Below are positions 7,326-20,830 of a stretch of DNA of 20,830 nt, in pieces. A program made the translations under genes and the position numbers. Numbering within the stretch: position 1 is the stretch's first letter; each line of letters begins with the position of its first letter. This DNA is from a virus. The DNA is taken from the IMG/VR virus record IMGVR_UViG_3300017743_000181, positions 1 to 20,830 of that record; one strand, given 5' to 3'. The notes beneath the pieces were generated by a model. It saw only the letters and a list, made by a program, of their open reading frames with translations. It was not told the origin of the DNA and did not search any database.

Positions 7326-7350
7326 ATACTAATTTTTTATATTTTATATT
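7326..7350 (+). promoter_or_regulatory. AT-only leader before scaffold gene
   Basis: Twenty-five bases with a single C and no G, ending TTTTATATTATGG at the start codon. It closely resembles the leader at 10090-10109. No Shine-Dalgarno or TAnnTTTG promoter motif is seen, so it more likely aids translation start than transcription. Confidence 0.4.
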
Positions 7351-8552: not shown

Positions 8553-10043
8553 ATGGCGATTACAAATCCCGGTGGTAATTTGAATAGTGTGCCTTCGATT
8601 CAGAAGCAAACACTAGCTACAAATTACTTAGACCTATCATCAGCATCAAATGCTGGTTGGGGTCAACAATACGTGCCAGACTTGATGGAAAAAGAAGCTG
8701 AGGTTTTCGGACCACGTACAATTTCTGGTTTCCTTGCTCAAGTTGGTGCTGAAGAGGCTATGACGGCTGATCAAGTTGTATGGTCTGAACAATCAAGACT
8801 ACACCTTTCTTACAAAGGTTATATTTCTGGAACAGGTATTTTTACTGTTGTTAGTGATATTGACGGTAACAAAGCCACGCAAGGCTTTACAGCTGCTAAC
8901 CACGGTATTAGAGTTAATGACACTGTTATCGTAGCTAACGCTAACGGAGTATTTAAAGGTATAGTTGTTTACGTTAACGGCGCTGCTGCTACGATTAAAG
9001 TTTACGATGGTAGTACTTCTATAGCTGCTTTAGGATCTGCTGGTGATACATCTTCAACTATATTAGTTTATGGTTCTGAGTATGGTAAAGCTACTGGGTA
9101 CTACGCTGATAGCGACGGTTCTACGCTTACTAGAAACAATAACTCTCACACAGCTAACGAGCCACATTTCAAGACTTTCACTAACAAGCCTATCATTATG
9201 AAGGACTACTACGAAGTATCTGGATCAGATGCATCTCGTATCGGTTGGGTGGAGATTTCTACTGAAAGTGGACAAGGTGGTTACTTATGGTACTTAAAAG
9301 CTGAGTCTGATACTCGTGCTCGTTTTAACGACTACGTTGAAATGTCTATGCTAGAGTCTGTTAAAGGTTCTGGGTCTAACGACGCTGATCTTCACTTAAG
9401 AGCTGACGGTGATAACGTTGGTACTCAAGGTTTATTTGACGCTATTGAAGACAGAGGTAATGTTACTACTGGTATTACTGGTGTTAATGCTGCTACTGAT
9501 TTAGCTGAATTTGACGCTATCTTAGCTGAGTTTGATAAGCAAGGCGCTATTGAAGAATACATGATGTTTGTAGACAGATCTACATCTTTAGCTATCGATG
9601 ATATGCTAGCTTCTATGAATTCTTACGGTGCTGGTGGTACATCTTACGGTGTATTCAACAACTCTGAAGATATGGCTTTAAACTTAGGTTTCTCTGGATT
9701 CCGTAGAGGTTCTTATGATTTCTACAAATCAGATATGAGATACTTAAACGACAAAGCTACTCGTGGTGGTATTAACGATGCTGCAGGAGCTTCTGCTATC
9801 CGTGGTATTTTAATGCCAGCTGGTACTTCTTCTGTTTATGATCAAACTGTTGGAGCTTCAATTAAACGTCCGTTTTTACACGTTCGTTATAGAGCTTCTC
9901 AAACTGATGATCGTAGAATGAAGACTTGGACTACTGGTTCAGTTGGAGCTGCTACATCTGCTTTAGATGCAATGCAACTACACTTCTTAACTGAAAGATG
10001 TTTGATCACTCAAGGTGCAAACAACTTCATGTTGATGAAGTAA
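8553..10043 (+). CDS. Major capsid protein
   Basis: A 496-residue protein expected to form the HK97-fold shell. Evidence is its place after portal and scaffold, size, composition (Ala, Gly, Ser, Thr and Asp rich), and an N-terminus of capsid type: GWGQQYVPDLMEKEAEVFG at about 30-48, then ISGFLAQVGAEEAMTADQVV and WSEQSRLHLSYKG. The end (MKTWTTGSVGAATSALDAMQ, LITQGANNFMLMK) looks like the last strands and helix of the fold. Residues about 92-165 form a beta-rich stretch (GIRVNDTVIVANANGVFKGI) that looks like an inserted small barrel, perhaps replacing the E-loop region or acting as a built-in decoration. By hand count 10 of 21 arginines are CGT, more than in most neighbours, which favour AGA; this suggests selection for high expression. 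A strong terminator follows 10 bases after the stop. Confidence 0.85.
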   Translation: MAITNPGGNLNSVPSIQKQTLATNYLDLSSASNAGWGQQYVPDLMEKEAEVFGPRTISGFLAQVGAEEAMTADQVVWSEQSRLHLSYKGYISGTGIFTVVSDIDGNKATQGFTAANHGIRVNDTVIVANANGVFKGIVVYVNGAAATIKVYDGSTSIAALGSAGDTSSTILVYGSEYGKATGYYADSDGSTLTRNNNSHTANEPHFKTFTNKPIIMKDYYEVSGSDASRIGWVEISTESGQGGYLWYLKAESDTRARFNDYVEMSMLESVKGSGSNDADLHLRADGDNVGTQGLFDAIEDRGNVTTGITGVNAATDLAEFDAILAEFDKQGAIEEYMMFVDRSTSLAIDDMLASMNSYGAGGTSYGVFNNSEDMALNLGFSGFRRGSYDFYKSDMRYLNDKATRGGINDAAGASAIRGILMPAGTSSVYDQTVGASIKRPFLHVRYRASQTDDRRMKTWTTGSVGAATSALDAMQLHFLTERCLITQGANNFMLMK

Positions 10044-10053
10044 TCATATTACT

Positions 10054-10089
10054 AGGTCGGGGGCTTAGGCTCCCGATCTTTTTTTTTTT
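10054..10089 (+). terminator. Intrinsic terminator after major capsid gene
   Basis: A stem of 10 pairs (10055-10064 with 10069-10078; GGTCGGGGGC against GCTCCCGATC, two of the pairs G-U) closes a TTAG loop and is followed by 11 T. An extra A-T pair at 10054/10079 is possible. The GC-rich stem stands out sharply from the AT-rich surroundings. It should end or attenuate + strand transcription directly after the capsid gene, keeping capsid mRNA in excess over downstream connector genes. Confidence 0.93.
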
Positions 10090-10109
10090 AATTTTTATTT
10101 TATATTATT
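10090..10109 (+). promoter_or_regulatory. AT-only leader after the terminator
   Basis: Twenty bases made only of A and T, ending TTTATATTATTATGG at the start codon. The leader before the scaffold gene is almost the same. No Shine-Dalgarno site and no recognised promoter are present, so downstream transcription may depend on read-through of the terminator. Confidence 0.35.
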
Positions 10110-10946
10110 ATGGCAAAGAAAACAACTAAAAAGGTTGATGTAGAACAACCTGAAATTAAAGCTACAAATGAAATGCAACAAGTTGAAATTAAAAAACCTG
10201 TTGCTAAGTCTGAAACAAAACCTAAGTGGGAAATAAAAGATAGAGTGTATAACTTAAAAGGAAGTAAAAAACCTTTATCTTATATGCTTAGAAGCTCTAA
10301 CATTTATTTTTTTGATGAGAAGCAAGGTTACGAAAGAGAACTTAAGTATTGCGAAAACCAAATAACTCCATTTGTTGATGAAATGAAAGGTGATCAAAGA
10401 CTTGCTCACATTATTTTTAGAAACGGAAGTTTATTTGTTGAAAAGTCAAAAACAACTTTACAAAAACTTTTATCGTTATACCACCCTCACAAAGATCAAG
10501 TGTATACAGAGTACGAGCCTGTAAAAGAAGCTGCTAGTGAAATAGAAGTACTAGAAATGGAAGCTGATGCAATATTAATGGCTAGACAGTTAGATATTGA
10601 TATGGCAGAAGCTATCATGAGAGTAGAGAAAGGATCTGAGGTAGCTAACATGAGTTCTAAGGAGCTTAAAAGAGATTTATTGCTGTTTGCAAGAAACAAT
10701 CCTTCTTTGTTCTTAGAGCTAGCCGCTGACGACAATGTACAGTTAAGAAACTTTGGTATCAAAGCTGTTGAGTCAGGTATTATTAAATTATCAAGCGATC
10801 AAAGACACTTTACGTGGGGGTCTAATGATAGAAAAATAATGACTGTTTCTTTTGATGAGCACCCATATACCGCGCTTGCTCACTGGTTCAAAACAGACGA
10901 AGGTATGGAGATATACTCCAACATAGAAAAGCGTCTTGACGCGTAA
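10110..10946 (+). CDS. Conserved phage protein of unknown function in the head region
   Basis: A 278-residue soluble protein. The first 40 residues are a Lys-rich, low-complexity arm. Residues about 45-130 look globular and beta-rich (RVYNLKGSKKPLSYMLRS, IYFFDEKQGYERELKYCEN, then HIIFRNGSLFVEKSKTTLQK). The second half is helical (EIEVLEMEADAILMARQLDI, then SSKELKRDLLLFARNNPSLF). There is no membrane segment or enzyme motif. Its slot, after the capsid gene and before the connector proteins, suggests a minor capsid, cement or head-completion protein. The basic arm could touch DNA or the acidic scaffold. It is isolated by an upstream terminator and a downstream hairpin, so its dose may be set separately from the capsid and connectors. 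I cannot name the family. Confidence 0.65.
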   Translation: MAKKTTKKVDVEQPEIKATNEMQQVEIKKPVAKSETKPKWEIKDRVYNLKGSKKPLSYMLRSSNIYFFDEKQGYERELKYCENQITPFVDEMKGDQRLAHIIFRNGSLFVEKSKTTLQKLLSLYHPHKDQVYTEYEPVKEAASEIEVLEMEADAILMARQLDIDMAEAIMRVEKGSEVANMSSKELKRDLLLFARNNPSLFLELAADDNVQLRNFGIKAVESGIIKLSSDQRHFTWGSNDRKIMTVSFDEHPYTALAHWFKTDEGMEIYSNIEKRLDA

Positions 10947-10952
10947 CTATCC

Positions 10953-10994
10953 TATAGTAGAGCAGCCACTCTTCGGGGTGGTTGCTTAACTATA
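10953..10994 (+). ncRNA. Long RNA hairpin with UUCG tetraloop
   Basis: An 11-pair stem (10961-10971 with 10976-10986, two G-U pairs) is capped by a C(TTCG)G tetraloop. The pairing extends outward after one A-A mismatch (10959/10988) with TATAGT (10953-10958) against ACTATA (10989-10994), giving about 18 pairs in total. No T run follows; the next bases are A-rich. It is therefore not a standard intrinsic terminator and may act as an mRNA 3' stabiliser, a processing site or a weak terminator. It begins 6 bases after the stop of the upstream gene and ends 12 bases before the next start. Confidence 0.8.
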
Positions 10995-11006
10995 AAAAAT
11001 ACATAA

Positions 11007-11954
11007 ATGGCGGTAAATATAAACACAGTATATCAAAGAGTTTTAACTCTTGCTAACAAAGAGCAAAGAGGGTACATTACGCCTCAAGAATTTAATCTAC
11101 TCGCCAACCAAGCGCAGATGGAGATATTTGAAAAGTATTTCTATGATATAAGTCAAGTATCTAAAGTTAAAGGTAATGATACACGTCACTCTGACTTACT
11201 AACATTACTAGAAGAAAAGCTAACGCCTTTTACTAAAAGACAAGCTAGTGTATCTTTGATAGACGCAGAAGGTAGCATGACGCTTCCTTCTGATTTGTAT
11301 AGAATTAATAGCTTAGTTTTTAATCACGCTACTCTTGGGTATACAGAAGTAAATTTAGTAAGTGAAGAAGAGGCTACGTTATTGAATAAATCTCCTTTAG
11401 CAAAACCTAACCTAACTAGACCTATATACGTAAGAAACTCTAGTGGCATAAAAGTTTTTCCAAAAAGTTTGTTTGGATATTTTACTCAAAACTGCGACAC
11501 AACAGCTAGTAGCGCAAGCGCGTTTGCTGATGCTGGTGGTAGTGTAGCTAGTATACTAGCAGATCAGCTTATTTTTGGTTCTGGTATAACTGCTTCTAAT
11601 ACTAGGGTTCAAGCTATAGCGAATCCTGTTGACCCAGAAACTAGACACGTACTTACTTTGACTCAAGCGGCTGGGTCTACACAAAGCGACACAACGCTTA
11701 CCTTTGCTACAAATAGTGATATTGTAAAATGTAATTACATAGCAAAGCCTACTACAGCGTCTTGGGGATACAATATAGTTGGTGAATACCCACTTTACAA
11801 TTCATCTACGTCTGTAGATTTTGAACTGCATCCTTCTGAGGAAACAATGCTAGTTAATACTATATTGAGAATGGCTGGAATAATATTAAAAGCAGCTGAG
11901 CTACAACCAAAGAAAAAAAATCAAAGCACATCAACAGATAAAAAAACTAAATAA
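11007..11954 (+). CDS. Putative head-tail connector (ring) protein with inserted beta domain
   Basis: A 315-residue protein. The N-terminal region is helical with NKEQRGYITPQEFNLLANQA (about residues 17-36) and EIFEKYFYDIS, a pattern seen in connector or ring proteins of marine podoviruses and crAss-like phages. It is followed by SMTLPSDLYRINSLVFN and a strand-rich part, and it ends with a helix (EETMLVNTILRMAGIILKAA, about 276-295). Residues about 160-233 look like an insertion of Ser/Thr/Ala-rich beta structure (LIFGSGITASNTRVQAI, HVLTLTQAAGSTQSDTTLTF). A similar pattern occurs in the giant protein downstream. The likely role is an adaptor ring between portal and tail. Its TAA overlaps the next ATG (TAATG), so it is coupled to the second connector candidate. 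The precise position in the stack is unknown. Confidence 0.62.
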   Translation: MAVNINTVYQRVLTLANKEQRGYITPQEFNLLANQAQMEIFEKYFYDISQVSKVKGNDTRHSDLLTLLEEKLTPFTKRQASVSLIDAEGSMTLPSDLYRINSLVFNHATLGYTEVNLVSEEEATLLNKSPLAKPNLTRPIYVRNSSGIKVFPKSLFGYFTQNCDTTASSASAFADAGGSVASILADQLIFGSGITASNTRVQAIANPVDPETRHVLTLTQAAGSTQSDTTLTFATNSDIVKCNYIAKPTTASWGYNIVGEYPLYNSSTSVDFELHPSEETMLVNTILRMAGIILKAAELQPKKKNQSTSTDKKTK

Positions 11955-20394: not shown

Positions 20395-20437
20395 AGTGCT
20401 AAAAGTGTAATTATTTAATAATTGAAACTATAATATT
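20395..20437 (+). promoter_or_regulatory. AT-rich leader with a perfect inverted repeat
   Basis: Forty-three bases that hold a perfect 7-base dyad at 20409-20423 (AATTATT, T, AATAATT) and end in TATAATATTATGG at the start codon. The dyad centre is one base, so it suits a protein-binding site better than a hairpin, but AT-rich chance is likely. The TTGAAA and TATAAT hexamers are 1 base apart, so they are not a promoter. Confidence 0.3.
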
Positions 20438-20830
20438 ATGGCAAGAATAGTAAGCCCAATGAAACTTTTTGGTATTGGCAAAAGGAAAAAGAGAAAATTA
20501 GCCGCTGCTACAGCTGCTGCAGAAGCTACTTTAGCTCCTGTAATGCAACAATACCAAGACTCTGAATATGTTGATCCGTATGCTAGCATGGAAAATATCT
20601 ATGAAGATTTAACTGTAAATACACAGCAAGCAGAGTTTCAAAAGCAAATGGCGCTTCAACAGCAAGCTGATACTCTTGACGCGCTTAGAAGCACAGCTGG
20701 GGCTAGCGGCGCGGCTGGTTTAGCTCAAGTGTTATCAGGGTCTTTTGCTAGACAACAACAACAAGCTTCAGCCTCTATAGGGGAGCAAGAAAGAAAAAAT
20801 CAATTATTAGCTTTGCAAGGTGCTGAGCAA
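20438..20830 (+). CDS. Putative internal virion/ejection protein (partial, 3' end outside window)
   Basis: The first 131 codons of a gene that runs off the right edge. The N-terminus is strongly basic (KRKKRK at about residues 15-20), then Ala-rich. An ENIYEDLTVNTQQAEFQKQM segment (about 49-68) and a Gln/Ala-rich helix follow, with a small-residue stretch AGASGAAGLAQVLSG (about 87-101) and QQQQASASIGEQERKNQ. An Ala/Gln-rich helical protein with a glycine hinge, just after the tail-stabilisation gene, resembles the internal proteins of T7 (gp14) and P22 (gp7, gp20), which are ejected to form a conduit through the envelope. No signal peptide is visible. The ATG at 20438 follows an AT leader ending ATTATGG. 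A tail or scaffolding protein cannot be ruled out from the visible part. Confidence 0.5.
   Translation, partial: MARIVSPMKLFGIGKRKKRKLAAATAAAEATLAPVMQQYQDSEYVDPYASMENIYEDLTVNTQQAEFQKQMALQQQADTLDALRSTAGASGAAGLAQVLSGSFARQQQQASASIGEQERKNQLLALQGAEQ

Follow-up and report, generated by a model that had tools for sequence, protein, structure and literature searches.

The gene that follows the capsid gene in this phage ends in a long, two-tier hairpin that has no U run, is maintained by compensatory changes among relatives, folds better on the coding strand, occupies a single fixed place and is followed by no recognised promoter-like element. The explanation that we consider best, at a probability of about 0.5, is that this hairpin is a transcription-permissive boundary in the mRNA (a site of processing or of 3' protection) and that the next gene would be fed by read-through.

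Genomic context of the junction

The stretch of DNA analysed (the window) measures 20,830 nt and is a virus record in its own right. It holds the late region of a tailed phage, with the gene order terminase, portal, scaffold-position gene, capsid, G2, G3, G4 and a 2,294-aa structural protein. The name capsid rests on gene position and on the original prediction. The scaffold-position gene codes for an acidic protein of 392 aa with no PHROG match, and G2 matched two PHROGs, both of unknown function, and gave no match in a Pfam search. Relatives of the capsid protein were found in 85 phage records (68 from Flavobacterium phages, 15 from Cellulophaga, one from Maribacter and one unclassified, MW202828), all of them less than 60% identical to the window protein, and a host within the Bacteroidota is therefore likely. 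The spaces after the capsid gene and after G2 are referred to as gap 1 and gap 2, and their hairpins as hairpin 1 and hairpin 2. The features concerned are the following.

7327–7350, + strand: AT-only stretch 5' of the scaffold-position gene, a diverged copy of a promoter-like element
8553–10043, + strand: major capsid (virion structural) protein gene (PHROG 13704, head and packaging, E 2.5e-95)
10054–10089, + strand: hairpin 1 with T11, a classical intrinsic terminator after the capsid gene (stem 10054–10079, T at 10079–10089)
10086–10109, + strand: AT-only, promoter-like element directly 5' of G2, its motif conserved in relatives
10110–10946, + strand: G2, 278 aa (PHROG 34748, E 6.7e-25; PHROG 16922, E 2.2e-12)
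10953–10994, + strand: hairpin 2, U-less and two-tier, with a cUUCGg loop, recognised from its fold and compensatory conservation
10953–10958/10989–10994, + strand: lower stem of hairpin 2, 6 bp, AU-rich
10960–10971/10976–10987, + strand: upper stem of hairpin 2, 12 bp
10972–10975, + strand: loop of hairpin 2, UUCG
10995–11006, + strand: spacer between hairpin 2 and the G3 start, 12 nt, A-rich, no promoter-like element found
11007–11954, + strand: G3, head/packaging structural protein, the first gene 3' of hairpin 2 (PHROG 14543, E 2.2e-34)
20406–20414, + strand: TGTAATTAT, a promoter-like motif 32 nt upstream of the gene at 20438

The two hairpins in the window

Hairpin 1 has the traits of an intrinsic terminator, a GC-rich stem-loop (11 pairs and a loop of 4, CUUAGG in the window) followed at once by a U run (11 T) after a stop codon. 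It tops the terminator-like sites in a scan of the window and is the third most stable + strand fold in a 50-nt scan, and none of 200 shuffles of the region 10040–10095 was equally stable (z -5.5). A classical terminator with 11 T at the end of the capsid gene had been predicted, and both the stem and T11 are in place; termination at this point is supported as far as the letters of the DNA can tell.

The most stable + strand fold of the same 50-nt scan is hairpin 2, in which 18 pairs are arranged over 42 nt with a 1x1 mismatch dividing the lower from the upper stem. No shuffle out of 200 was as stable, either for the region 10930–11010 (z -5.4) or for 10950–11000 (z -8.5). The lower stem begins 6 nt after the G2 stop codon (TAA, 10944–10946) and the hairpin ends 12 nt ahead of the G3 ATG at 11007. 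On its 3' side the stem is followed by the A-rich AAAAAATACATA, without a U run; at the point where a canonical terminator has its U run the window reads AAAAAATA. A C(UUCG)G hairpin lacking a U run had been predicted at the end of the gene after capsid, and its position, loop and missing U run all stand (10953–10994), although that description left out the AU-rich lower stem.

No match to Rfam was found in the whole window at the gathering score, and a search at E up to 5 over 10030–11020 gave four weak matches, none of them over hairpin 2. We rejected hairpin 2 as a terminator of the minus strand, where the T run precedes the stem and the fold is weaker.

Compensatory change, strand and copy number

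The upper stem was compared in 60 aligned sequences (59 distinct) with 500 shuffles, which ignore relatedness. Of 590 cells, 99.8% remain paired; both partners differ in 73 cells, where shuffles average 21.6, and covariation scores 0.487 (0.315 in shuffles). None of the 500 shuffles reached any of these values. The number of pairs with a double change (5 of 10) was matched by 35 of the 500 shuffles and is thus not clearly better, and further pair types, matched by 498 of 500, show no excess. When the stem was slid by 1–3 columns, pairing fell to 31–53%. For the lower stem, the flanks belonging to the same sequence fold at a mean of -4.38 kcal/mol, against -3.45 (sd 0.17) with permuted 3' flanks, and none of 2000 permutations (33 distinct flank pairs, relatedness ignored) was as low. 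Compensatory changes, the lack of which the original prediction had named as evidence against itself, are therefore present in both tiers. The internal loop between them varies: the window has 1x1, many relatives have 2x3 or a similar loop, and in a few the stem is continuous.

The + strand fold beats that of the minus strand in 63 of 64 sequences, and G-U pairs make up 134 of the 1030 pairs in stems of the hairpin 2 type. Taken together with the compensatory changes, this strand bias and these G-U pairs most simply point to an RNA structure of the + strand. A DNA element (a cruciform, a packaging site or a protein-binding palindrome) would agree with one strong copy per genome in a fixed place, but is disfavoured by the strand bias and the G-U pairs, as well as by the cUNCGg loop (56 of 60 distinct sequences), which points to + strand RNA, and by the four loci in which unrelated hairpins replace hairpin 2; we consider it very improbable.

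A covariance model of hairpin 2 was run on 35 records. In 25 of them, the window included, it found a single strong match (E <= 1.3e-5), and every one of these is at the G2 stop; coordinates place 24 of 24 there, and the window is the twenty-fifth. With a single strong match in each of these records, we rejected a repeated genomic element. The same model gave nothing below E 0.2 in six records of the U-run clade described below, nor in four cultured phages, Cellulophaga phage phi38:1 being covered only over 1–40000, outside this junction. Two core patterns run over IMG/VR placed 146 of 160 loci (the best 80 of at least 120 and 80 of 96) at the G2/G3 junction; the other 14, all from the shorter pattern, lie elsewhere, many of them in GC-rich DNA.

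Hairpin classes among relatives

Two scans of IMG/VR, with the best 80 matches to each protein, provided at least 159 loci, and among the matches listed gap 2 could be read in 89 non-redundant loci, including the window. These were classified after hand review. A U-less hairpin of the cUNCGg type occupies gap 2 in 70 of the 89 (L118 was put in this class from its fold), an unrelated U-less hairpin in 4 (L010, L073, L098 and L119) and a U-run terminator (AATAGCCAC..GTGGCTATTTTTATTT type) in 13, a class called from its letters, since RNAfold draws some of the U run into pairs. In the remaining 2, L014 and L029, the hairpin overlaps the G2 stop codon; the fold of L029 has z -3.0, and that of L014 is little above chance (z -1.4, 13 of 200 shuffles as stable). 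Both of these loci have a different gene 3' of G2, the hairpin being shifted upstream onto the stop codon.

What separates hairpin 1 from hairpin 2 is the U run and not the loop, since both favour cUNCGg. Of 87 distinct gap 1 sequences, 86 have a T run of at least 4 close to the base of the stem, whereas in gap 2 the longest T run of the U-less UNCG class is 1–3 in 60 of 60. Two different controls had been proposed for the two hairpins, and this part of the earlier interpretation agrees with the U-run counts. The idea that the UUCG loop marks a different control is not supported, because cUNCGg also caps 62 of the 87 gap 1 terminators and therefore does not make the hairpins unlike; we rejected it as a class mark. 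As a warning, the UUCG loop alone cannot tell a processing hairpin from a terminator.

In gap 2 the 5' arm of the stem measures 16–19 nt in 54 of the 60 UNCG sequences and 17–19 nt in all four unrelated U-less hairpins, which fall at four separate places on the G2 tree (a quick tree that leaves 37 of 89 inner branches open and in which the outgroups sit on very long branches). Their recurrence with arms of similar length suggests that a long stem counts for more than its letters or its loop.

Gap 2 is 51–61 nt long in 65 of the 70 UNCG loci (the other 5 end early at an ATG inside the hairpin), 55–68 nt in the 4 unrelated U-less loci and 105–119 nt in the U-run class, so the U-less gaps have room for little besides the hairpin. 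These narrow lengths, together with the position of the window hairpin close to both the G2 stop and the G3 start, would suit an action on translation, in which the hairpin shields the start of G3 translation from termination on G2 or is melted by ribosomes that finish G2. We regard this as unlikely, given that the U-run clade manages without such a hairpin and that, where a small ORF precedes G3, the hairpin keeps its place by the G2 stop, at a distance from the start of G3. The latter arrangement agrees with an element that forms the 3' end of the G2 message or serves its processing. The small gene in question (about 50–60 aa, KSKGLGDTIEKITKATGIKK type, with a CGC.KRK motif) was seen between G2 and G3 in 21 listed loci, among them L003, L011, L016, L020, L038, L064 and L127, and is missing from the window; a Pfam search gave no match.

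As a separate observation, contig ends cluster at both hairpins. Out of 41 IMG/VR capsid-locus contigs that end less than 4 kb past the capsid gene, 7 stop no more than 90 nt from the last capsid codon, and 5 stop inside 70 nt around gap 2, perhaps because hairpins and AT-rich repeats disturb assembly.

Promoter-like elements

The AT-only element is 24 nt long and is found directly before the ATG of both G2 and the scaffold-position gene. With a threshold set at the 10th percentile of gap 1 sequences, its motif was recovered in 80 capsid loci 64 times in gap 1 and 33 times upstream of the scaffold gene. Two further matches (L032 and L080) precede an ORF of scaffold size, and the remaining sequence and the opposite strand gave none. 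Of the 74 loci that extend to the scaffold side, 33 have an exact copy there, and the others, including the window, have a diverged AT-rich stretch. The element may be a late promoter or an unusual translation start signal. As it touches the ATG, a promoter here would give a leaderless mRNA, and leaderless mRNAs are rare (5.5%) in Flavobacterium psychrophilum according to the accessible part of PMC9723704, so that the element may instead act on translation.

A different promoter-like sequence, TGTAACTAT, lies downstream of the U-run terminator after G2 in 13 of 13 U-run loci, whereas the corresponding motif TGTAAYTAT appears in gap 2 of none of the other 76. The result was the same when each G2 stop was followed for 120 nt (2 of the 89 loci being shorter). 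The U-run label needs only 3 changes on the G2 tree, so the association of U run and promoter motif represents a few events and not 89. The junction after G2 comes in two forms in this phage family, a U-run terminator with a promoter-like sequence or a U-less hairpin.

TGTAAYTAT also stands 28–32 nt upstream of the homologue of the 20438 gene in the window, as it does in each of the four genomes that were read from end to end, and 31–34 nt before another ORF (182–193 aa) in three of those four. Over the five sequences, 10 of 18 matches are near the start of an ORF of at least 50 aa and 8 are not. Sites of the motif about 30 nt ahead of phage genes are as follows, with the minus strand marked.

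Window: 20406
G013:C1:29935, 42016, 52493
G012:C1:62268, 24998 (-)
G005:C1:41219, 6979 (-)
G019:C1:7437 (-), 43878

We read TGTAAYTAT as a putative phage promoter, a candidate second class. Cultured relatives, three of which were read, offer another version of the junction. In the available portion of PMC9723704 the flavobacterial promoter box is given as TAnnTTTG, and in Flavobacterium phage elemo and in MW202828 gap 1 and gap 2 each contain a U-run hairpin and then TATCTTTG, which matches this box; Panino has U-run hairpins in both gaps and the exact box in 0 of 2. Away from the late genes, several gaps of G005, G013 and G019 contain boxes of the GGATAATAT or AGATAATAT-like kind. Ahead of these lie ACAAA-rich stretches in which words similar to TAAATACGA occur, possibly a further promoter family.

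In gap 2 of the window, GTAACTAT at the G2 stop codon (10942–10949) was considered as a promoter and rejected, as it is not kept in most relatives. With no promoter-like element in the U-less gap 2, the downstream genes would have to be reached by read-through, and hairpin 2 should then not terminate completely. A promoter of another sequence inside or upstream of hairpin 2 may exist, which would count against this reasoning.

A boundary in the mRNA or a partial terminator

We propose that hairpin 1 would end the scaffold-capsid transcript and that transcription of G2 would start afresh at a promoter formed by its AT element. At hairpin 2, where G2 ends, transcription would not stop completely, and RNA polymerase would read through into G3 and the connector and tail genes. 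The boundary between the G2 and G3 messages would then be set in the RNA by the two-tier hairpin. Most likely an RNase III-like endonuclease would cut there and/or the hairpin would block 3' exonucleases and so stabilise the G2 mRNA, and G3 would be left with a short A-rich leader. Processing or 3' protection is favoured because no promoter-like element lies downstream and because the whole two-tier stem is conserved.

A serious rival explanation is partial termination: hairpin 2 would be a U-poor internal terminator passed by only a fraction of the polymerases, which would set the expression ratio of G2 to G3. Hairpin 2 stands at the same spot as the U-run terminators of 13 relatives and of the three cultured relatives read, and low-U internal operon terminators with long GC-rich stems are known in Clostridia (PMC9045158, in the part available). 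The accessible text of PMC8355165 likewise says that the U trail is not necessary and cites U-less actinophage terminators; since U-less hairpins can terminate, read-through at hairpin 2 is presumed rather than proved. Against partial termination, a T run longer than 3 nt occurs in 0 of 60 distinct U-less UNCG sequences, and the AU-rich lower stem, which would form after the polymerase has passed, is also kept by covariation, a conservation that termination does not obviously need. We hold this rival to be possible, though less probable than the mRNA boundary.

Of similar probability is a more specific version of the mRNA boundary, in which hairpin 2 has evolutionarily replaced a terminator and promoter and is cut or protected by host RNase III or a phage factor, which would set the ratio of G2 to connector products. 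The hairpin would be constrained in length (5' arms mostly 16–19 nt) and free in sequence and loop.

Known systems and significance

Among known elements, the RNase III signals of T7 (R1.1 and others) are the nearest model, being likewise hairpins between the genes of a phage mRNA with a long helix and an internal loop. The 18 pairs of the window agree with the T7-type description of a stable intercistronic helix of up to about two turns. R1.1 is 60 nt long with an asymmetric 4/5 internal loop (PMC6121014, from the portion available), unlike hairpin 2, which has 42 nt and an internal loop that is 1x1, and so not asymmetric, in the window and about 2x3 in many relatives. Set against the T7-type signals, hairpin 2 is also a single strong site per genome, and its cleavage is putative.

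The low-U internal terminators of Clostridia ABC importers and the U-less phage terminators share with hairpin 2 a long GC-rich stem between operon genes and few or no U. They are reported to terminate (PMC9045158 and PMC8355165, as far as the available parts go), whereas for hairpin 2 termination is putative, and it differs from them in the conservation of its AU-rich lower stem.

Intercistronic mRNA of phage T4 has CUUCGG hairpins, which resemble hairpin 2 in placing the ultra-stable cUUCGg loop between phage genes. In the window family, however, the same loop also caps the U-run terminators of gap 1, and it is a stability device here and not the mark of a class. Among the matches listed, papers about CUUCGG hairpins or about RNA in these phages contained nothing on this element. 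The clearest contrast is with elemo and MW202828, which have the same junction between the same neighbouring genes and fill it with a U-run terminator and a host-type promoter box, where the window has a U-less hairpin and no promoter-like element.

To our knowledge, mRNA processing in the Bacteroidota, the probable hosts, has been little studied. Hairpin 2 adds a covariation-supported RNA element that occurs in many uncultured phages related to those of Flavobacterium and Cellulophaga, and as close relatives solve the same junction in a different way, the family offers a natural comparison of how the transcripts for head proteins and for connector genes are kept apart.
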